Shown: one piece after another, positions 1,759 through 20,229 of the stretch | How the letters are laid out: each line of letters opens with the position of its first letter | How positions within the stretch are numbered: position 1 is the stretch's first letter | From: a virus | IMG/VR virus record: IMGVR_UViG_3300031857_001576 | Coordinates: 1-21,911 of that record | Length of the DNA stretch: 21,911 bases | Strand: one strand, 5' to 3' | The notes under the pieces: generated by a model | What the model was told of the DNA's origin: nothing | Database searches by the model: none | What the model saw: the letters and a program-made list of their open reading frames with translations, nothing else | Program-made: the position numbers and the translations under genes

Positions 1759-3794
1759 TGGAAGAACAACAGTACAACTCTAAAGAGATGGAGATTACCA
1801 GTTGGGTGATGTCTCGCTGTGAGAACTGGCGTAACCAACGTGATGAGAACTATCTAGAGTCTTGGAAAGAATATGAGCGCCTCTGGCGTGGTATCTGGGC
1901 TGGTGAGGATGCCACTCGTGACTCTGAGCGTTCCAAGATTGTTACGCCTGCACTACAGCAAGCAATTGAGACTTCAGTAGCTGAGATCGAAGAGGCTATC
2001 TTTGGTCGTGGTGAGAAGTTCTTTGACATCATTGACGACAGAGCAGACAACAATAAGATTGATGTAGAAGAGATTAAAAATCAGATGGTAGAGGACTTTA
2101 AGAAAGAGAAAGTCCGTAAGTCAGTATCTGATATTGTTCTTCTTGGTGCTGTGTATGGCACTGGCATTGGTGAGATTACCATCGCAGAAAAGACAGAACT
2201 AAGACCAGCGATGAGGCCCATAGTAGAGATGGGTGTTGCTGCCATTGGTGTTGAAGAAGTACCTAGATTCGTTGTTGGTCTAAAGCCAATTAACCCTAAG
2301 AACTTCTTAATTGATCCCAATGCCACCAGCATTGAAGATGCTCTTGGCTGTGCTATTGAAGAGTATGTGTCCATTCACAGCGTTGTTGCTGGTATGGAGG
2401 CTGGTGTTTATAAGAAAGTAGAAAACCTTGGCCCCGCCGCAGTCGAAGATGACTTAGAGCCAGTACAGGAAGACATTGAGTATCAGCAAGACAAGGTTAA
2501 ATTATTACGCTACTACGGCCTTATTCCCAAGTTCATGCTTGAGGAAGACGGTGAAAAGATTATGGAACTCTTTAGCAAAAAGCAAGAAGAGTTTGGTAGC
2601 GAAGCAGCAGAGTACACAGAACTGGTAGAAGCCATTATTGTTATCGCTAACGATGAGCATTTACTCAAGGCAGAACAGTCGCCATACATGATGGAAGACC
2701 GTCCTGTGGTGGCTTTCCAGTATGACTCCATGCCCAATCGTTTCTGGGGCCGTGGCATCGCTGAAAAAGGCTATAACTGCCAGAAAGCCATCGATGCACA
2801 AATTCGTAGTCATCTAGATAGCCTAGCATTGACTACTGTGCCTATGATGGGTATTGATGCTACTCGTCTGCCTCGTGGTGCTAAGTTTGAGGTAAGGCCA
2901 GGTAAGACTATCCTAACTAATGGTAATCCAGCAGAGATTCTGCAACCATTTAAGTTTGGTAATACTGACCCAGGCAACCTTGCCACTGCTAACCAGTTTA
3001 TGCAGATGCTGCTAATGGCAACAGGTACAGTAGACTCTGCACAACTAAATGCTGGCACCACTGGTGATATGGCTGGTATGTCCCCAGCACTATCAGCAAT
3101 CATTAAGAAGAATAAGCGCACCTTAGTCAACTTCCAAGAGCAGTTCTTAATACCGTTTGTAACTAAGTCTGCATACCGCTTTATGCAGTTTGATCCTGAG
3201 CGCTATCCTGCACAAGACTTTATCTTTGTTCCTTCTTCTAATCTTGGTATCATTGCTCGTGAATATGAGCAGATGCAGTTTATGAACCTGTTGAAGACAC
3301 TTGGACCAGATAGTCCTGTTGTGCCGATAGTGATGAAGTCCATTATTGAGAATAGTGGCCTTGCTGACCGTGAGAAGTTGGCTGCACAACTTGACCAAGC
3401 AATGCAACCCACGCCTGAACAGTCTCAGATCCAGCAAGTTCAACTACAGTTGCAGTTGGCTCAGGCACAGGCACAGGTAAAACAGTTGGAGGCATCGGCA
3501 CAGAAAGACCAGGCTGAAGCTGCCAAGGCTGTTGTAGAGGCTCAGATGATGCCAGAAGAGACTCGTGCAAAAGTACTCAGTGCAGTGAGTAAAAATCTAC
3601 CCACCGCTGACGACCAAGCACAGAAAGAGTTCGATAGGCGTGTTAAAATTGCTGAACTGATGCTCAAAGAAGCCGATATTAAAAATAATACCAAGATAGT
3701 AGAGTTGCAAATGGCAGAGAAAATTGCTACTATCGGCAAAACTGAGCAAGAATTTCTTGATAAAATAACAAAAGAGATTGAAAACAATGCCTAA
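1758..3794 (+). CDS. Portal protein (head-to-tail connector)
   Basis: 678 residues from ATG 1758. A GTG three bases earlier is also in frame, but the ATG is better spaced from GAGG (1746-1749). The N-terminus has the aromatic-rich helices typical of podovirus portals (ESWKEYERLWRGIWAG, then IVTPALQQAIETSVAEIEEAIFG), and the middle includes VVAFQYDSMPNRFWGRGIAE, typical of the portal core. Roughly residues 550-605 form a glutamine- and alanine-rich coiled coil, and a charged helical tail follows. The portal is a ring at one head vertex through which DNA is packed and ejected, and it binds the terminase and the adaptor. Its position right after the large terminase agrees. The last 8 bases overlap the fibre gene. 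Confidence 0.9.
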   Translation: MEEQQYNSKEMEITSWVMSRCENWRNQRDENYLESWKEYERLWRGIWAGEDATRDSERSKIVTPALQQAIETSVAEIEEAIFGRGEKFFDIIDDRADNNKIDVEEIKNQMVEDFKKEKVRKSVSDIVLLGAVYGTGIGEITIAEKTELRPAMRPIVEMGVAAIGVEEVPRFVVGLKPINPKNFLIDPNATSIEDALGCAIEEYVSIHSVVAGMEAGVYKKVENLGPAAVEDDLEPVQEDIEYQQDKVKLLRYYGLIPKFMLEEDGEKIMELFSKKQEEFGSEAAEYTELVEAIIVIANDEHLLKAEQSPYMMEDRPVVAFQYDSMPNRFWGRGIAEKGYNCQKAIDAQIRSHLDSLALTTVPMMGIDATRLPRGAKFEVRPGKTILTNGNPAEILQPFKFGNTDPGNLATANQFMQMLLMATGTVDSAQLNAGTTGDMAGMSPALSAIIKKNKRTLVNFQEQFLIPFVTKSAYRFMQFDPERYPAQDFIFVPSSNLGIIAREYEQMQFMNLLKTLGPDSPVVPIVMKSIIENSGLADREKLAAQLDQAMQPTPEQSQIQQVQLQLQLAQAQAQVKQLEASAQKDQAEAAKAVVEAQMMPEETRAKVLSAVSKNLPTADDQAQKEFDRRVKIAELMLKEADIKNNTKIVELQMAEKIATIGKTEQEFLDKITKEIENNA

Positions 3795-6531
3795 CATCAA
3801 AGAATTTATTAAAAAAATAGGTTCTGAGTCTGTTTCCTTAGAGGAACAGCAACAAGCATTGGTTGAAATTGAACAAACCATTAAGGCTGCTCGTCAAAAG
3901 CGTGAAGAAGAGGTAGGTAAAAACGCTAAGATGGTGGTAGACGCTCTAAAACAGATCGAAAGCCGCCTAAATGACAAGTTCCAAGAACTGTTGGCAACAC
4001 CAGCAATGGTTGGTGCTCCCGGCAGAGACGGTAAAGACGGCAAAGACGGTAAAGATGGCCTACCAGGCCCTGCTGGCCTCAATGGCGCACAGGGTAAGGA
4101 TGGTATTGATGGTGTAGATGGCAAGGATGGTGTCTCTGTTGTTGATGCTAAGATTGATTTTGATGGCTCCTTAGTCATTACACTGTCTAATGGCGATGAG
4201 ATTGATGCTGGTTTAGTCGTTCCAACAGCAGTAGCAGAGCAATATAACGCCTTTATGACTAGAGGCGATATTATTCCTACTCAGTCAGGCAACTCTGGTA
4301 AATATCTAACCACTGATGGCTCCAACCTTGCCTGGGACCAGATCAATATCTCTACCGCAGACATTACTGGTACTCTACCAATTGCTAATGGCGGTACTGG
4401 CGCTACTACTGCACCCAATGCTAGGACTAATCTAGGTCTTGGCACTATTGCTACACAGAATGCTAACAGTGTAACAGTCACTGGCGGCTCAATAGACGGC
4501 ACTACCATCGGCGGCTCCACCCCAGCAGCAGGCACTTTTACTACTCTAGCCCTAGACGCACCCACCACAGACGCAACCCTGACAATCGACACAGGCATTA
4601 CTGGCTGGGTTTACTCTGGTAAGACCGTGAGTGTTGTGGGGCAGGAAAATAACCCCCAAGGATTATTTATTGGTTCAAACGGAACCAAGATGTATGTCTG
4701 TGGTTCGACTGGTGATGATGTAAACGAATACACTCTTGGGACTGCGTGGGATGTTTCTACCGCAACATTTACTGCGGTATCAACAGGAGTAACACAAGAC
4801 ACCACACCTGTTGATGTTTTTTTCAAAGACGATGGTCTGACGATGTTCATGCTTGGTCAAACAAACGATACCGTCTACCAATACACATTATCCGTAGCGT
4901 GGGACATAACAACCGCAACCTACGCATCCAAATCCTTTAGCGTAACAACCCAAGACTCTGCGCCAACTGGTATGTGGTTTAAGCCTGATGGCACGACCAT
5001 GTATATTGTTGGAGCGACTAATGACACGGTTTACCAATACACATTAAGCACACCTTGGGATATTTCAACCGCTTCTTATGCAAGCATTTCTTTTAGCGTT
5101 GCATCTGTTGAATCTAATCCACAACAAGTAAATCTAAGCGCAGACGGAACAAAGATGTGGGTGCTTGGCTCTACTGGTGATGACATAAATGAATATACGC
5201 TTGGAACCGCCTGGAATATCAGCACCGCTACGCGCGTAAACAATATCTATGTTGGATTTCAAGAAACAGGCCCAACTGGATTATTTATAGATTCAACTGC
5301 GGCAAACAGAGTTTATGTGGTTGGCTTAACTACCGATGCAGTTTATCAATACAACACAGTTACTAATACGATAGACGCAACAACCGATAGATTCTATGTA
5401 AGTGGCGAAGGCTACATAGAAGGAAATACTTATTATGATAATAATGTCTATGTAGACGGTGCTGTAACAGCCAACGGAAGTTTAACTGCAGCTTCCTCAA
5501 TTAATTTTTCAACTGCTGGAAGCAACATATCAATTGGAACTGGATTAACTACTGGAGTTTTAACTCTTGGTGGCACAGCTCAAACATCAGCAATTACAGT
5601 AGGCCAGTCCACAGGCGCACAGACCCTAAACCTTGGTACTGGCGCAACTACCAACGGAACGACAAAAGCAGTCAACATCGGAACCGCTGGTGTCTCTGGG
5701 TCTACCACGACCATTAACATCGGCTCGGCTGTATCCGGTGCGCTTGGTAACATAAGTATGGGCAATAGCGGAACACAATTTCTTGTTGCCCCAACAACTT
5801 CTGCAGTCAACTATGTTCAGGTTACTGGTAATGCAACCACATCTCGCCCTGTTATTTCTGCACAAGGCTCTGATGCAAATATTGGGTTGCAGCTTGCCAG
5901 TAAAGGTAATCGTTCAATTTCATTACTGACTAATAGTGTTACATCATTAGATGTGTTATCACCGGCCTCTGGTGTTAATTATTTTACCTTAAATGGTTCA
6001 ATTACTAACCTTTCTCCAAGTATTGTTTCAACCGGAACAGACACCAACATCGACCTAAACCTGACTACTAAAGGAACTGGTGCTGTTAAGTTAAATACTG
6101 GTGGTGGTGAGCAGTTAAGAGTCAGCAACACCGCCTCTGCTGTGAACTATGTGCAGGTTACTGGTAACGCTACTACAGGGTATCCGCAGTTATCGGCGCA
6201 AGGTTCTGATACAAATCCTGGAATTTTGTATACGACAAAAGGTACTGGTGAACATCGTTTCTCAACTGCGTCAAGCGTAACGGCAATCCAGTTCCGTGTT
6301 CGTCATATTAACGCCCCTGCAAATTATTGCGCGGTTATTGGCGCTCCTGCTGGATCTACCCCTGAATTTCAAACTCTTGGAACTGACACCAACATCGACC
6401 TAGCACTAACACCAAAAGGTACAGGACTGGTTCGCTTTGGTACGCACACAGCAACAGCATTAACAATCTCTGGTTACATTGAGATCAAAGACGCAGGTGG
6501 AACAATTCGTAAACTAGCAGTAGTTACTTAA
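3787..6531 (+). CDS. Large fibre-like virion protein: coiled coil, collagen-like stretch, beta-propeller, repeats
   Basis: 914 residues from ATG 3787 (a TTG at 3778 is also in frame), overlapping the portal by 8 bases. In order: charged coiled coil (about 1-70); 13 unbroken Gly-X-Y triplets (G76-G115); a short beta domain (118-145); a fibre linker with IANGGTGATTAPNARTNLGL (199-218); a propeller-like region (273-530) of about five 50-residue repeats built on DGTKMYV...YQYTL...WDISTA; a threonine- and glycine-rich stretch (565-660); and four copies of an NY-x-TG repeat starting near 675, 731, 787 and 847; then an end domain SGYIEIKDAGGTIRKLAVV. Coiled coil plus collagen repeat implies a trimeric fibre, with the propeller probably binding a surface sugar or receptor. 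The position next to the portal is unusual for a fibre, so a head fibre is a fair alternative. No peptidoglycan or depolymerase active site is recognised. Confidence 0.82.
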   Translation: MPNIKEFIKKIGSESVSLEEQQQALVEIEQTIKAARQKREEEVGKNAKMVVDALKQIESRLNDKFQELLATPAMVGAPGRDGKDGKDGKDGLPGPAGLNGAQGKDGIDGVDGKDGVSVVDAKIDFDGSLVITLSNGDEIDAGLVVPTAVAEQYNAFMTRGDIIPTQSGNSGKYLTTDGSNLAWDQINISTADITGTLPIANGGTGATTAPNARTNLGLGTIATQNANSVTVTGGSIDGTTIGGSTPAAGTFTTLALDAPTTDATLTIDTGITGWVYSGKTVSVVGQENNPQGLFIGSNGTKMYVCGSTGDDVNEYTLGTAWDVSTATFTAVSTGVTQDTTPVDVFFKDDGLTMFMLGQTNDTVYQYTLSVAWDITTATYASKSFSVTTQDSAPTGMWFKPDGTTMYIVGATNDTVYQYTLSTPWDISTASYASISFSVASVESNPQQVNLSADGTKMWVLGSTGDDINEYTLGTAWNISTATRVNNIYVGFQETGPTGLFIDSTAANRVYVVGLTTDAVYQYNTVTNTIDATTDRFYVSGEGYIEGNTYYDNNVYVDGAVTANGSLTAASSINFSTAGSNISIGTGLTTGVLTLGGTAQTSAITVGQSTGAQTLNLGTGATTNGTTKAVNIGTAGVSGSTTTINIGSAVSGALGNISMGNSGTQFLVAPTTSAVNYVQVTGNATTSRPVISAQGSDANIGLQLASKGNRSISLLTNSVTSLDVLSPASGVNYFTLNGSITNLSPSIVSTGTDTNIDLNLTTKGTGAVKLNTGGGEQLRVSNTASAVNYVQVTGNATTGYPQLSAQGSDTNPGILYTTKGTGEHRFSTASSVTAIQFRVRHINAPANYCAVIGAPAGSTPEFQTLGTDTNIDLALTPKGTGLVRFGTHTATALTISGYIEIKDAGGTIRKLAVVT

Positions 6532-6544
6532 TCAAGGAGAAAAC

Positions 6545-6814
6545 ATGGCACTCAAAAAATCTGTAATGACTGAGTTTGGTGTAGAGGCGCAGTATTGGAA
6601 CATCGGAGCCGTACAAGAGGACTTCAAAGGCAAGGGAACTGAGGTGACCTTTTATGGCTACGCATCTGCCGAGGCTCGTGCCGCTGAGAAACAGCCTCTA
6701 GCCGCTGGCAAGGTTCAGATCGCTGGTGACGAGTATGTCGCTGGTGCAGACCGTGCCCAACTCTACGCAATCATCAAGCAAAAGCCTGAGTTTGAGGGTG
6801 CAGAGGACTGCTAA
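6545..6814 (+). CDS. Small conserved-looking phage protein, function unknown
   Basis: 89 residues with an AAGGAG site six bases before ATG 6545. The sequence (MALKKSVMTEFGVEAQYWNI, then VTFYGYASAEARAAEKQPLA) looks like a compact beta-rich domain and resembles small proteins often found beside phage fibre genes. It has no transmembrane segment and a single cysteine as the last residue. It probably shares the transcript of the fibre gene and may be an accessory or assembly factor for it; this is inference from position. Its TAA stop overlaps the stop of the opposite-strand nuclease gene by three bases in a shared CTAA. Confidence 0.72.
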   Translation: MALKKSVMTEFGVEAQYWNIGAVQEDFKGKGTEVTFYGYASAEARAAEKQPLAAGKVQIAGDEYVAGADRAQLYAIIKQKPEFEGAEDC

Positions 6815-7380
6815 GTAATTCTGTGCTGCCGCATGAACTGAGCAATTTTCTCATGTTCTTCGGCAGTACCATTATTCTTAATGCGGTTAGCCCTCATAGA
6901 GATTATAGCGACATTACCTTTGATGTAGCCTTTTAGTGGGTCTATACGATCAAAGGACGGAGAATCATCTAAGTAGCCTTCTTCATTGAAGTAATTAAGT
7001 TCTATCCCAAGGATAGGACAGTGAGTAGGGAAGTCAATATCACCAAACTCAATTGAGAACTCTTTTCCAACACGAAGAGAGTTTGCTTTTTTGGCTTTGA
7101 ACTTCTCTCTCATGGCGGTATAAATAAAAGACTTACGGTATTCCATGTCTTTCCATTTATTACCCCACTTAGCTTGCATCTTGGCCTCGAATTGTTCGCG
7201 CCTCTTTTGACGCTTAATCTCAGTTGCCTTGATGTTATTCTTTTTACATATTTGCTCTACTCTTTGCTTAGAGACTTTGTTATTTAGTTTACTGGCTATT
7301 TCAGTATAACCAAAGCCTTGCTTGGCCCAGGTTAATAAATTAGTTCTTTCTTCAGCGGTAAGGACATATTGAAATGGCAT
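6811..7380 (-). CDS. HNH-type endonuclease with N-terminal helix-turn-helix (homing-like)
   Basis: 189 residues, the only opposite-strand gene inside the late block. The start is ATG at 7380 because an AGGAG lies at 7386-7390, five bases before it; the longer frame up to 7431 would run through the promoter. Residues 9-50 look like a helix-turn-helix (TEIASKLNNKVSKQRVEQIC). Residues 120-170 carry HCPILGIELNY, then SFDRIDPLKGYIKGNVAIIS and ANRIKN, the pattern of a phage HNH family that lacks zinc cysteines (only C121 is present here). Such genes are often free-standing homing endonucleases that cut phage DNA lacking them and spread by repair. It has its own promoter and meets the plus-strand gene stop to stop, as expected for a late insertion. 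The catalytic residues cannot be assigned with certainty. Confidence 0.8.
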   Translation of the reverse strand: MPFQYVLTAEERTNLLTWAKQGFGYTEIASKLNNKVSKQRVEQICKKNNIKATEIKRQKRREQFEAKMQAKWGNKWKDMEYRKSFIYTAMREKFKAKKANSLRVGKEFSIEFGDIDFPTHCPILGIELNYFNEEGYLDDSPSFDRIDPLKGYIKGNVAIISMRANRIKNNGTAEEHEKIAQFMRQHRIT

Positions 7381-7402
7381 AGAGTCTCCTGTGAAACAGC
7401 AG

Positions 7403-7431
7403 ATGTTAGCATACTTATAGTTGAATGTCAA
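7403..7431 (-). promoter_or_regulatory. Sigma-70-type promoter for the HNH gene
   Basis: Read on the minus strand, TTGACA (complement of 7426-7431) is followed by exactly 17 bases and then TAACAT (complement of 7403-7408), with a TG one base before the -10 box (extended -10). Transcription would start near 7396-7397, leaving a leader of about 16 bases that holds the AGGAG of the HNH gene. Box quality and spacing are both close to consensus. Confidence 0.75.
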
Positions 7432-7449
7432 GAAATATTTTGGTATAAT
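7421..7449 (+). promoter_or_regulatory. Sigma-70-type promoter reading toward scaffold and coat genes
   Basis: TTGAAT (7421-7426), a 17-base spacer and a perfect TATAAT (7444-7449), with TG at 7441-7442 giving an extended -10. The expected start lies at 7455-7457, which is the ATG of the next gene at 7457, so the message would have little or no leader. It sits back to back with the minus-strand promoter, and the two -35 boxes share base 7426. Confidence 0.72.
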
Positions 7450-7456
7450 TAAGAAA

Positions 7457-7699
7457 ATGTCGCCAGAACTACAACAATATTACGATAACAGGTTCGACCT
7501 CTTCATCCACCCCGGCTGGAAAGACCTAATCGAAGACCTGCAAGCGATGCTTCAGCAATACGAAGACATCCGTAACTGCGATAAAGACACTATCGAGTTC
7601 CGTAAAGGACAAATCGACATCCTAGACTATTTCATTGGACTACGGGAACTGTCGCAACGAACCTATGAGGAACTAAAAGATGGCGAAAAGAATATTTGA
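7457..7699 (+). CDS. Small helical protein of unknown function
   Basis: 80 residues from ATG 7457. A longer frame from TTG 7421 would begin inside the promoter and is unlikely. The protein looks all-helical and rather acidic (LIEDLQAMLQQYEDI, then FRKGQIDILDYFIGLRELS) and has no cysteines of note and no membrane segment. There is no clear ribosome site, since only AAGAAA precedes the start, which fits either leaderless translation from the promoter at 7421-7449 or weak expression. Its last 20 bases overlap the next gene. No known function is recognised; similar small helical proteins occur between fibre and scaffold genes in podoviruses. Confidence 0.72.
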   Translation: MSPELQQYYDNRFDLFIHPGWKDLIEDLQAMLQQYEDIRNCDKDTIEFRKGQIDILDYFIGLRELSQRTYEELKDGEKNI

Positions 7700-7913
7700 A
7701 TTCCGCTGCGTGAAGGATCACGTCAGTGAAAAATACGTTGATGATTCAGTAACAGTCATACAGTGTCCTCACTGTGGAAATGACGCATCTAGAATCATCA
7801 GCACTCCGCACTTTATGTTGGAAGGCTACAGTGGGTCTTTTCCCACCGCCGCTGCCCAATGGGTGCGTAAACGCGAGAGTCACATCAAGTACGAAAGGAA
7901 GATGAACTCTTAG
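7680..7913 (+). CDS. Small zinc-ribbon protein, FmdB-like
   Basis: 77 residues with GAGG (7667-7670) well placed before ATG 7680. The N-terminal half is a small zinc ribbon: the first knuckle is C10-x3-H14 and the second C29-P-H-C32, followed by DASRIIS as in FmdB/putative-regulator zinc ribbons. The second half (HFMLEGYSGSFPTAAAQWV, then a basic tail) matches a phage family usually annotated as hypothetical. The replacement of a CxxC by CxxxH in the first knuckle is worth noting. It lies just before the scaffold gene and may be a small assembly or regulatory factor; no partner is known from the sequence. Confidence 0.75.
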   Translation: MAKRIFEFRCVKDHVSEKYVDDSVTVIQCPHCGNDASRIISTPHFMLEGYSGSFPTAAAQWVRKRESHIKYERKMNS

Positions 7914-7980
7914 AGGGGAACGGGAACGCCCTCACATTTGTAAAATGCTTTCCTAAAATGCTATATGCACGGGAGACAAT

Positions 7981-8778
7981 ATGGCTCGTTTTATTGAAGA
8001 AGGTAAGGAAGAAGAAACACAAGAAGTTATAACCGACATCGCCGCTGAACCTACTCAAGCAGAATCTGCAGAACCAGTTCAGCAAGAGCAAGTTGAAGAT
8101 GAAGGCCTCCCTGATAAATATAAGGGTAAGAGTGCCAAAGAAATTGCTCAGATGCACATGGAGGCTGAGAAGTTAATCGGTCGCCAAGGCAGTGAGGTCG
8201 GAGAACTTCGTAAAGTTGTGGATGACTTCATCAAAGCCCAAACTTCGACAAAACAGCAACTGCAATCGGAACCTGTAGAAGAAACTGATTTCTTCGCTGA
8301 TCCGAATAGAGCAGTAGCAAAGGCAATTGAGAATCATCCAAAGATTAAAGAAGCTGAACAGCTTTCCTTTGAGATGAAACAGGCAAAGGCTTTTAATGAA
8401 CTAAAGGCACGACATCCCGACTTTCAGGAAATCGTTGCTGATCCAGGATTCCAAAATTGGGTTGCTGGTTCAAAGGTTCGTGCAGAGTTGTTTGTTCGTG
8501 CTGACAGGTCTTTTGACTATGATGCTGGCGATGAACTTCTTTCCTTATGGAAGGAACGCAAGCAAGTAGCAACACAGACTGTCAACGCAGAGAAACAAGT
8601 CAGGAGCCAAGCCGTCAAAGCCGCTACTACTACTGTTCCATCTGGTAGCGATGAAACGCCTTCTAGGAAGGTTTATCGTAGAGCAGACATTATTAAACTC
8701 ATGCAAACTGACCCTGACCGATACGATATGATGCAAGACGAAATCATGCAGGCATACCGAGAAGGCAGAGTTAGGTAA
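7981..8778 (+). CDS. Scaffolding protein for head assembly
   Basis: 265 residues, with GGGAG (7971-7975) before ATG 7981. The composition is typical of phage scaffolds: a very acidic, glutamate- and glutamine-rich N-terminus, then LPDKYKGKSAKEIAQMHMEA (about residues 43-62), a long helical middle rich in lysine and glutamate, and a basic C-terminus (RKVYRRADIIKLMQTDPDRY to REGRVR) that would bind the coat protein. The gene directly precedes the coat gene, the classic order. The protein forms the temporary core of the prohead and is lost before or during packaging. There is no sign of a fused protease. Confidence 0.88.
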   Translation: MARFIEEGKEEETQEVITDIAAEPTQAESAEPVQQEQVEDEGLPDKYKGKSAKEIAQMHMEAEKLIGRQGSEVGELRKVVDDFIKAQTSTKQQLQSEPVEETDFFADPNRAVAKAIENHPKIKEAEQLSFEMKQAKAFNELKARHPDFQEIVADPGFQNWVAGSKVRAELFVRADRSFDYDAGDELLSLWKERKQVATQTVNAEKQVRSQAVKAATTTVPSGSDETPSRKVYRRADIIKLMQTDPDRYDMMQDEIMQAYREGRVR

Positions 8779-8810
8779 CTAACTTAACATTTTAGAAAAG
8801 GAATTTTATC

Positions 8811-9773
8811 ATGCCTTTGGGTACCAATAACATTACACAATCGAATGCCAACACCGCAGGTTTCGTACCTGAGGTATGGTCTGACGAAATCGTTGCCGCT
8901 TACAAAAAGAACCTAGTTGCTGCTAATCTGTTCAAGAAAATGAACATGAAAGGCCGCAAGGGTGACGTGGTTCACTTCCCCGTTGCTGGTCGTGGCTCTG
9001 CTACTTCCAAGACTGCTTCTTCGCAAGTTACTCTGATTGGCGAGAGCAGCACGGAAAAAACTGTCACCATCGACAAGCACTTTGAGTATAGCCGACTGAT
9101 CGAAGACTTTGCTGAAGTTCAGGCTCTGTCATCGCTGCGCCGTTTCTATACCGAAGACGCTGGTTACAGCCTTGCTCGTCAGATTGACACCACGCTGGTT
9201 CGCCTTGGTCGTGCCGCTAATGGTGCTACCATCGGTACGGATGACTATGCTTCTTCAAGCGCTTCGACCAAAGCCTTTATTGGTTCGGATGGCTCGACTG
9301 CATACAACTCCTCGTCTTCTAACGCTGCTGCACTGACCGATGTTGGTATTCGCCGTGCTATTCAGCGTCTGGATGATGCCGATGTTCCGATGGATGGTCG
9401 TTTCCTGATCGTTCCTCCATCAAGCCGTAACACCCTGATGGGTATTGCTCGTTTCACTGAGCAGGCCTTTACTGGTGATGCTGCTGGTGGCAACACCATC
9501 CGCAACGGCATGATTGGCGACATCTATGGCGTTAAAGTCTATGTCACGACCAATGCTGATACAGGCGCTGGTAATACTACTACAGACCGTATCTGCTTGC
9601 TGGCACATCCTGACTTTGCAGTTCTGGTTGAGCAGCTTGGTGTTCGTGTGCAGACCCAGTACAAGCAGGAATACCTTGGTACGCTCTTGACCGCTGACAC
9701 GCTGTATGGTGCTGGTGCTCTGCGTACTGGTGCTTCTGACTCTGCTGCAGTGGCTCTTGCTGTTCCGGCCTAA
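8811..9773 (+). CDS. Major capsid protein, HK97 fold
   Basis: 320 residues with AAAAGGAA upstream of ATG 8811. N-terminal GFVPEVWSDEIVAAYKKNLV, then VVHFPVAGRG and KHFEYSRLIEDFAEVQ, match the N-arm and E-loop region of podovirus coats. Later MDGRFLIVPPSSRNTLMGIA and IYGVKVYVTTN match the P-domain and A-domain of this family, and the end (LLTADTLYGAGALRTGA) is the usual coat C-terminal region. It forms the icosahedral shell. The codon use is noticeably richer in GC-ending codons than the flanking small genes, as expected for the most highly expressed virion protein. A GC-rich hairpin follows the stop codon. Confidence 0.93.
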   Translation: MPLGTNNITQSNANTAGFVPEVWSDEIVAAYKKNLVAANLFKKMNMKGRKGDVVHFPVAGRGSATSKTASSQVTLIGESSTEKTVTIDKHFEYSRLIEDFAEVQALSSLRRFYTEDAGYSLARQIDTTLVRLGRAANGATIGTDDYASSSASTKAFIGSDGSTAYNSSSSNAAALTDVGIRRAIQRLDDADVPMDGRFLIVPPSSRNTLMGIARFTEQAFTGDAAGGNTIRNGMIGDIYGVKVYVTTNADTGAGNTTTDRICLLAHPDFAVLVEQLGVRVQTQYKQEYLGTLLTADTLYGAGALRTGASDSAAVALAVPA

Positions 9774-13912: not shown

Positions 13913-14590
13913 GTGTCTAATTACATTAAAGCTACTAACTTTGCAACTAAAGATGGACTTTCTACTGGAAATCCATTAAAGGTTGTTAAAGGTACAGAGA
14001 TTGATGATGAGTTTAATGCTATTGCTGTTGCTGTAGCAACCAAAGCAGACACGGCGTCTCCTACCTTTACTGGTACGCCAGCGGCACCCACTGCATCGGC
14101 AGGCACTAATACAACACAGATTGCTACCACAGCGTTTGTTACTACTGCTCTACAGGCAGCATATCCTGTTGGCTCTATCTACATCAATGCTACCAACAGC
14201 ACCAACCCAGGAACCCTGTTAGGATTCGGCACATGGACCGCCTTTGGTGCTGGTCGTATGATGGTTGGTTTCAATGCCTCTGATACGCTGTTTGATACTG
14301 CTGAAGAGACTGGTGGTTCTAAGGATGCTATCGTTGTCAGCCACACCCACACAGCCACTGTAACAGACCCAGGCCATACCCATACGCTATCACCAACAAA
14401 CAGAGCTGTTTATAACTCCGGTGCTGGAGGCACTGCTGGTTTATCTAATGGTGGAGAACAGTTTACACAATTGACTATGAGTTCGGCAACTACTGGTATT
14501 ACTGTTGCAAACAGCACTGAAGGTTCATCAGGCACCAATGCTAACCTACCGCCGTACATCACAGTTTATATGTGGAAGCGGACTGCTTGA
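13913..14590 (+). CDS. Tail fibre or collar-type receptor-binding protein with His pairs
   Basis: 225 residues. The start is GTG 13913, supported by AGGAG at 13902-13906. N-terminal NFATKDGLSTGNPLKVVKGT and DEFNAIAVAVATKAD are typical of podovirus fibre N-termini that anchor to the nozzle, followed by TFTGTPAAPTASAGTNTTQI. From about residue 84 there is a collar-type domain (YPVGSIYINATNSTNPGTLL, then FGTWTAFGAGRMMVGFN). Two HTHT motifs (144-147 and 155-158) can bind metal, as HxH motifs do in T4 short-fibre tips. The end, LPPYITVYMWKRT, is the standard close of this domain. It is short, so probably a small fibre or spike rather than a main receptor fibre. Confidence 0.85.
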   Translation: MSNYIKATNFATKDGLSTGNPLKVVKGTEIDDEFNAIAVAVATKADTASPTFTGTPAAPTASAGTNTTQIATTAFVTTALQAAYPVGSIYINATNSTNPGTLLGFGTWTAFGAGRMMVGFNASDTLFDTAEETGGSKDAIVVSHTHTATVTDPGHTHTLSPTNRAVYNSGAGGTAGLSNGGEQFTQLTMSSATTGITVANSTEGSSGTNANLPPYITVYMWKRTA

Positions 14591-19742: not shown

Positions 19743-20183
19743 ATGTCTGATCCAGCAGCATCAGTCCGTGCTGCGCTAGGAGGCATCAAAGAAGCGGTAA
19801 AAGTTGGCAGAGAGATCAACGAAACCGCCAAAGAAGTCAATACCTTCCTAGACGAGGAAGCAAAGGCTAGGATTGCCTGGAAGCGCAAACAACAGCAAAT
19901 TGAACGCCGTGGTGACATGATGTTCATGTCTGCCTATGAAGAGTACAAAATCATTAGGCAAATCAGGGACGCAGAGATGGAGATGTATAAGCAGATTGAA
20001 GTGGAGTTTGGAAGGCCAGCAGTGTCAGAAGTCAAGTCCTTAATTACACAACTACGAAAACAACATCTAGAACTTAACGATGAGTTTTATCGTAAGCGTA
20101 TGCAGACTAGACGAGAGTGGGGAATGATTTTAGTTGCTAGTGCTGTTGTGTATGGAATCTTTAAATTGACTGGAGTTATGTAA
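19743..20183 (+). CDS. Coiled-coil protein with C-terminal membrane anchor
   Basis: 146 residues, AGGAC before ATG 19743. N-terminal ASVRAALGGIKEAVKVGREI, then long charged helices (DEEAKARIAWKRKQQQIERR; VEFGRPAVSEVKSLITQLRK), and one C-terminal transmembrane segment (about residues 125-143, WGMILVASAVVYGIFKLTG). Tail-anchored orientation, with the coiled coil in the cytoplasm, is likely. It lies between the ejection proteins and the holin, so it could be part of the lysis block, for example a spanin-like or holin partner, or a late virion protein. It lacks a signal peptide and a lipobox, so a standard spanin is not supported. A 31-base tandem repeat overlaps its stop. Confidence 0.66.
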   Translation: MSDPAASVRAALGGIKEAVKVGREINETAKEVNTFLDEEAKARIAWKRKQQQIERRGDMMFMSAYEEYKIIRQIRDAEMEMYKQIEVEFGRPAVSEVKSLITQLRKQHLELNDEFYRKRMQTRREWGMILVASAVVYGIFKLTGVM

Positions 20184-20229
20184 TGATTACTTTAATATGA
20201 CTGGAGTTATGTAATGATTACTTTAATAT
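20167..20229 (+). repeat. 31-base tandem duplication at a stop/start junction
   Basis: Bases 20167-20197 and 20198-20228 are identical (31 bases), and base 20229 continues the match. Each copy holds the GGAG ribosome site, the TAATG stop/start and the first five codons of the next gene. In the first copy those five codons run into TGA (MITLI then stop, 20183-20200); the second copy supplies the true start of the holin gene at 20214. Confidence 0.95.

Follow-up and report, generated by a model that had tools for sequence, protein, structure and literature searches.

The receptor-binding proteins of the Staphylococcus phages phi11 (Gp45) and 80alpha (gp61) are trimers that carry a five-bladed beta-propeller in mid-protein; in Gp45 an N-terminal strand closes the ring, and a GlcNAc site has been proposed on one of its faces (PMC4901313, PMC7048315). 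In tachylectin-2, the propeller is built from 47-residue repeats with sugar sites between the blades (PMC4735018), and in eCIS fibres of the group eBAP3 collagen-like shafts are combined with propeller lectins (PMC12923769).

Here we analyse a 21,911-nucleotide stretch of virus DNA (the window), in which an initial annotation, made from the letters alone, had proposed a complete five-bladed propeller embedded in a phage fibre. We propose that a closed five-bladed propeller of a YVTN/SMP-30-like lineage sits in a virion fibre shaft, where it most likely acts as an exchangeable receptor-binding domain. The ring itself is predicted by a structural model; at the sequence level, the proposal draws support from unit counts in relatives that go by fives, from exchange between phage backbones, and from variability concentrated in loops assigned to one face.

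Organization of the fibre gene

The start codon of the fibre open reading frame overlaps the 3' end of the portal gene (Table 1). The N-terminal segment is 63% identical to that of locus L048 and was undetected in most other propeller proteins, and residues 73-135 match PHROG collagen-like minor tail and tail fibre families. The C-terminal shaft, for which a Pfam search returned no match, contains four divergent repeats at window 5790-6440. In one relative (L013:1-1957) the propeller is identical and the frame of the C-terminal shaft is interrupted or shortened, by mutation or by assembly error.

The fibre is followed by an 89-residue protein, of which 80-85% identical copies stand behind the fibre in L035, L038, L046 and L049, and the slot showed no copy of it in fibre-less relatives. 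In L046 and L049, where no portal homologue was found in the examined DNA, it follows the fibre too. Scans of window 3500-8900 for promoters and terminators stayed at chance level. Elsewhere in the window, a tandem 31-base repeat (20159-20229, 2.3 copies) spans a gene end and the start of the next gene, and contains an ATG.

Table 1. Features of the propeller-bearing fibre gene and of the gene behind it, in window coordinates
Feature	Position	Strand	Basis
Fibre-like protein, 914 residues, propeller-bearing	3787..6531	+	ORF
N-terminal segment, residues 1-75	3787..4011	+	Sequence comparison
Collagen-like Gly-X-Y stretch, residues 76-115	4012..4131	+	Pfam PF01391, E 1.7e-7, above cut-off
Exchanged module, smallest DNA stretch common to unrelated phages	4547..5409	+	DNA identity
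Predicted velcro strand (residues 274-282), ahead of blade 1 and completing blade 5 as its outer strand	4606..4632	+	AF2 model; relatives' partial unit in profile searches
Predicted blade 1, strands A-D	4654..4779	+	AF2 model
Predicted blade 2, strands A-D	4807..4941	+	AF2 model
Predicted blade 3, strands A-D	4963..5097	+	AF2 model
Predicted blade 4, strands A-D	5119..5250	+	AF2 model
Predicted blade 5, strands A-C; the velcro strand (4606-4632) supplies strand D	5272..5358	+	AF2 model
C-terminal shaft, divergent repeats (TASAVNYVQVTGNAT ... GTDTNIDLxLTxKGTG), conserved GYIEIKDAGGTIRKLAV tail at the end	5419..6528	+	
89-residue protein	6545..6814	+	Accompanies fibre in some relatives

Repeats and structural model of a velcro-closed ring

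The initial annotation had placed the propeller at residues 273-530 (window 4603-5376), and these coordinates are correct within the reading frame. Its four full and one partial repeat of about 51 residues were recovered by local alignment, with scores of 35-169 against shuffled means of 22-26; repeats 1-4 match one another at z 15 to 28 over shuffles, and the partial fifth repeat at z 2.7 to 7.7. The strand that it had read as the missing end of the ring, immediately ahead of repeat 1 (WVYSGKTVSV), indeed aligns with the repeat's last strand in close relatives (consensus YSxxSFSVxxQE), and profile searches picked up this velcro strand in many relatives as an incomplete unit, spanning model positions from about 30-39 to 51.

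We modelled residues 261-544 with AlphaFold2 (AF2), using 32 aligned sequences taken from the window and from other loci, with phage-record rows left out. The resulting model was confident (mean pLDDT 90.6, pTM 0.88), and DSSP assigned it 20 strands: one at residues 274-282, then four complete A-B-C-D sets and a final A-B-C. The predicted fold is therefore a beta-propeller of five four-stranded blades, in which, by model and sequence alike, the terminal strands would pair within one blade to close the ring, much as the annotation had suggested for this fibre-like protein.

The model finds independent support in relatives, whose unit counts come in multiples of five. All open frames of 91 loci were searched with a profile of the repeat unit (51 residues), and we counted the arrays that were uncut by contig ends and held at least 4 detected units. 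Complete arrays had 5, 10, 15 or 20 units in 104 of 107 cases (5 units in 88, 10 in seven, 15 in eight and 20 in one; two arrays had 4 units and one had 8), and after clustering at 90% identity 67 of 70 arrays were multiples of five. In arrays whose last unit ends near model position 30, the first unit often starts at about 30-39, which brings the total to five. The fifth unit of L004 and of L008 is weak or matched in part, chance probably explains the single-unit matches in L020, L023 and L091, and other counts off five stem from contig ends.

These counts, together with the five four-stranded blades of the model and the recurring split phase of first and last units, argue strongly against an open solenoid or a ring of another blade number, to which we assign next to no probability. 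The case for such an arrangement is the complete 8-unit array of L081; this array is 92% identical to one of 10 units, and so may be a collapsed assembly, or else a real deletion.

Several of the long arrays show some of their strongest blade likenesses at a spacing of five; in L066, for example, the values at lag 5 are 0.75 and 0.86, compared with 0.63-0.69 and 0.71-0.77 at lags 1-4 (L068 is an exception). Arrays of 10-20 units therefore likely arose, in some cases, by duplication of whole rings, and the multiples of five form a natural series in which to study the duplication of closed propellers. Two adjacent genes that consist almost wholly of propeller blades occur in L066, L074, L077 and L079, as pairs of 10 and 15 units or, in L079, of 20 and at least 13. 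For L074, a relative with 10 blades, AF2 returned a low-confidence model (pLDDT 74, pTM 0.54), and its Foldseek fits were poor, several of them to tandem double propellers.

History of the blades

Within the window propeller, blades 1 and 4 are 60% identical and blades 2 and 3 are 61% identical, compared with 38-43% for the remaining pairs among blades 1-4, which bears out the likenesses listed in the initial annotation. Its explanation, duplication in pairs, is not supported: the blades run A-B-B-A, where copying a two-blade unit in tandem would have produced A-B-A-B, and simple pairwise duplication was rejected as a poor fit to this order.

A tree of 96 blades from 19 proteins, built on a short alignment and with many forks left open, showed strongly clustered position labels (17 changes, compared with a shuffled mean of 58). 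One fork, supported at 100/97, unites blades 1 and 4 of the closer relatives (those at about 47% identity or more) and sets them apart from blades 2 and 3; their likeness is thus shared by descent within the window's group. The blades of the distant L006 also fall into this fork (100/97). Blades of the distant proteins L002, L006 and L090 mostly group within their own protein, and the likeness of blade 1 to blade 4 is absent from more distant family members.

A module exchanged between phage backbones

The receptor-binding domains of environmental phages are mostly unknown, and the propeller is common: a single scan of viral contigs recovered 190 matching stretches. Some relatives lie in proteins that match tail fibre families. 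Two distant matches, one of them weak, lay in bacterial genome contigs, and a plasmid search gave no match. The family is covered neither by Pfam above cut-off nor by any named PHROG family. Among viral models, the best Foldseek matches were proteins of Lentibacter phage ICBM2 and of uncultured Caudovirales. Isolated phages of Lentibacter, other Rhodobacteraceae, Synechococcus and Maribacter carry the propeller, making its binding directly testable.

The exchanged module is 86-95% identical at the DNA level to L014-L017, L019 and L047, and in L017 the shared match runs on to window 5741. In L047 the propeller is 91% identical and the portal 53% identical to the window's. L014-L017 combine a propeller of 86-90% DNA identity with unrelated N-termini (that of L015 and L017 reads STIVTRAxKGSPLTH, unlike the window fibre's), and no portal, scaffold or capsid homologue was detectable in their examined DNA. 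L018 and L021 have another N-terminus again, and C-termini likewise differ among relatives.

Phages with portals 53-64% identical to the window's again carry the propeller in the same slot, and L068 and L083, with scaffold and capsid 63-70% identical, have three-ring genes at a different slot. In the 62 relatives whose portal is 68-81% identical and whose contig also covers the next gene, the portal-to-scaffold slot was empty in 43, held an HNH-like gene alone in 16 and a mini-fibre in three; a propeller was found in none of the 62. Since 16 relatives carry the HNH-like gene alone there, the slot looks like an insertion hot spot. The window has an HNH-like gene in this slot as well (6811-7431, minus strand; assigned by eye, with a weak Pfam HTH match). 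The mini-fibres (L096:3787-4275 and L097:2723-3238; 163-172 residues) have neither propeller nor long shaft; they keep the collagen stretch and the window fibre's last residues, including the GYIEIKDAGGTIRKLAV tail, and lack the middle.

Exchange across backbones, together with the empty slots of relatives with close portals, indicates that the propeller is mobile relative to the phage backbone and to N-terminal anchors, as judged by sequence comparison, and such modular exchange is what a receptor-binding domain would be expected to display.

The location of the fibre gene between portal and scaffold makes a head fibre possible, and the protein could be a fibre of the head or a decoration of the capsid whose targets are general surfaces, mucus or particles for instance, and not a specific receptor. 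The gene order portal-fibre-scaffold-capsid, the collagen-like stretch and the existence of mini-fibres devoid of any binding domain (L096, L097) all agree with such a role, but the same module occurs in tail-fibre-like genes of other phages (L055, L060) and adjoins tail genes in L002. We regard this alternative as possible, though rather doubtful.

Sequence change concentrates in loops assigned to one face

Propellers present their DA and BC loops on one face and their AB and CD loops on the opposite face. With loops assigned from the strands of the AF2 model, mean column entropy across the wider family was 1.54 bits in DA and BC loops, compared with 0.99 in AB and CD loops (p 0.0003). In copies sharing 89% identity or more, variable sites numbered 22 of 57 in DA and BC loops and 6 of 59 in AB and CD loops (Fisher p 0.0004). 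The AB and CD loops contain structural motifs (the DG turn and W-D-x-S-T), and the contrast between faces may therefore reflect structural constraint in part. Between distinct close copies, dN/dS of the propeller was mostly 0.19-0.29, indicative of purifying selection with no sign of positive selection overall; given these values, the domain is constrained, and within it change is tolerated or favoured on one face.

The same pattern bears on whether the ring might be a spacer or structural bulge without a ligand, recognition then residing at the C-terminal end or in another tail protein. The propeller does lie in mid-protein, the C-terminal repeats could contact the host instead, and a separate tail protein (13913-14590), with a T4 Gp10-like C-terminal domain (Gp10_C), is a second candidate for host contact. 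Yet changes concentrate on one face, the ring occurs with differing C-termini, and in several relatives (such as L066, L083 and L090) the protein stops at the last blade, so that the propeller is the tip there; a spacer is therefore unlikely.

A receptor-binding domain would account for the exchange, the many N-terminal anchors, the terminal position in some relatives and the one-face variability. The ring would interrupt the shaft of a virion fibre that is presumably trimeric and stiffened by collagen, and the fibre's ends would anchor it to the virion; the N-terminal strand is predicted to join the last three strands and so close the ring, and variable residues of the DA/BC loop face would contact a ligand on the host surface. 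Here we infer the trimer, the attachment to the virion, and the binding and type of ligand; module exchange and one-face changes argue in favour of receptor binding by the propeller. On the wider scale, we lean somewhat towards an undescribed, sequence-distinct family of five-bladed adhesion rings that would serve phages of aquatic bacteria as a mobile host-recognition cassette, swapped between unrelated phages behind many anchors, tuned on one face, and multiplied by duplication of whole rings so that a chain holds one to four of them.

Comparison with known propellers

Searches against structure databases, another step the annotation had recommended, returned propellers by both routes. By profile, the relative among PDB sequences was the YVTN surface-layer propeller 1l0q (E 8e-13), and the SMP-30 Pfam model matched 30 of 32 relatives (best E 8e-14) and the lactonase model 22 of 32; in the window protein itself, Pfam propeller matches all fell below cut-off. 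This profile similarity extends over several blades and suggests a blade lineage in common with YVTN, SMP-30, lactonase and NHL-like propellers. The closed rings differ: 1l0q is seven-bladed, SMP-30 six-bladed and the lactonase model seven-bladed according to its Pfam description, and YVTN repeats measure about 42 residues, compared with five blades of 51 residues in the window propeller.

From these Pfam neighbours (SMP-30, lactonase and arylesterase, all weak), and from how many relatives they match, one might suppose an enzyme acting on surface polysaccharide or lactone-like substrates. Such matches are expected from general propeller similarity, however; most invariant residues appear structural and occupy the same positions in several blades (the G of DG, the Y/Q of YQY, and S-T-A), the BC and DA loops are the most variable, and no single conserved polar set was seen. 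We hold an enzymatic role to be very improbable.

In Foldseek comparisons with the PDB, the best match was the C-terminal domain of the bacterial protein YjiK of E. coli (3qqz), with a TM score of 0.79 by target and rmsd 3.5 at 11% identity, a fit that would agree with an equal blade number; most other propellers among the best 50 of 883 significant matches fitted at rmsd about 6-10. Tachylectin-2, raised in the initial annotation, was absent from the PDB profile matches and from these best 50 of 883 fold matches, and kinship with it was dropped for want of sequence signal. It resembles the window propeller in its five blades, velcro closure and high internal identity (PMC4735018), and differs in repeat length (47 against 51 residues). 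The eBAP3 fibres, likened to the window fibre by description, belong to contractile injection systems and have a TNFR-like C-terminal domain.

Kinship with phi11 Gp45 was likewise dropped, as neither BLASTP nor profile comparison found homology to the window propeller (hhalign probability 0.1). Gp45 has a coiled-coil stem and tower domains where the window fibre has a collagen and repeat shaft, and its blades are not described as near-identical repeats, unlike those of the window propeller. The mid-protein ring of five blades with an N-terminal closing strand, predicted for the window fibre, is known from Gp45, which by analogy offers a precedent of the same architecture, a five-bladed platform for which GlcNAc binding has been proposed (PMC4901313). 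With phi11 Gp45 as a known five-bladed receptor binder of a phage, the window propeller is a new, sequence-unrelated variant.
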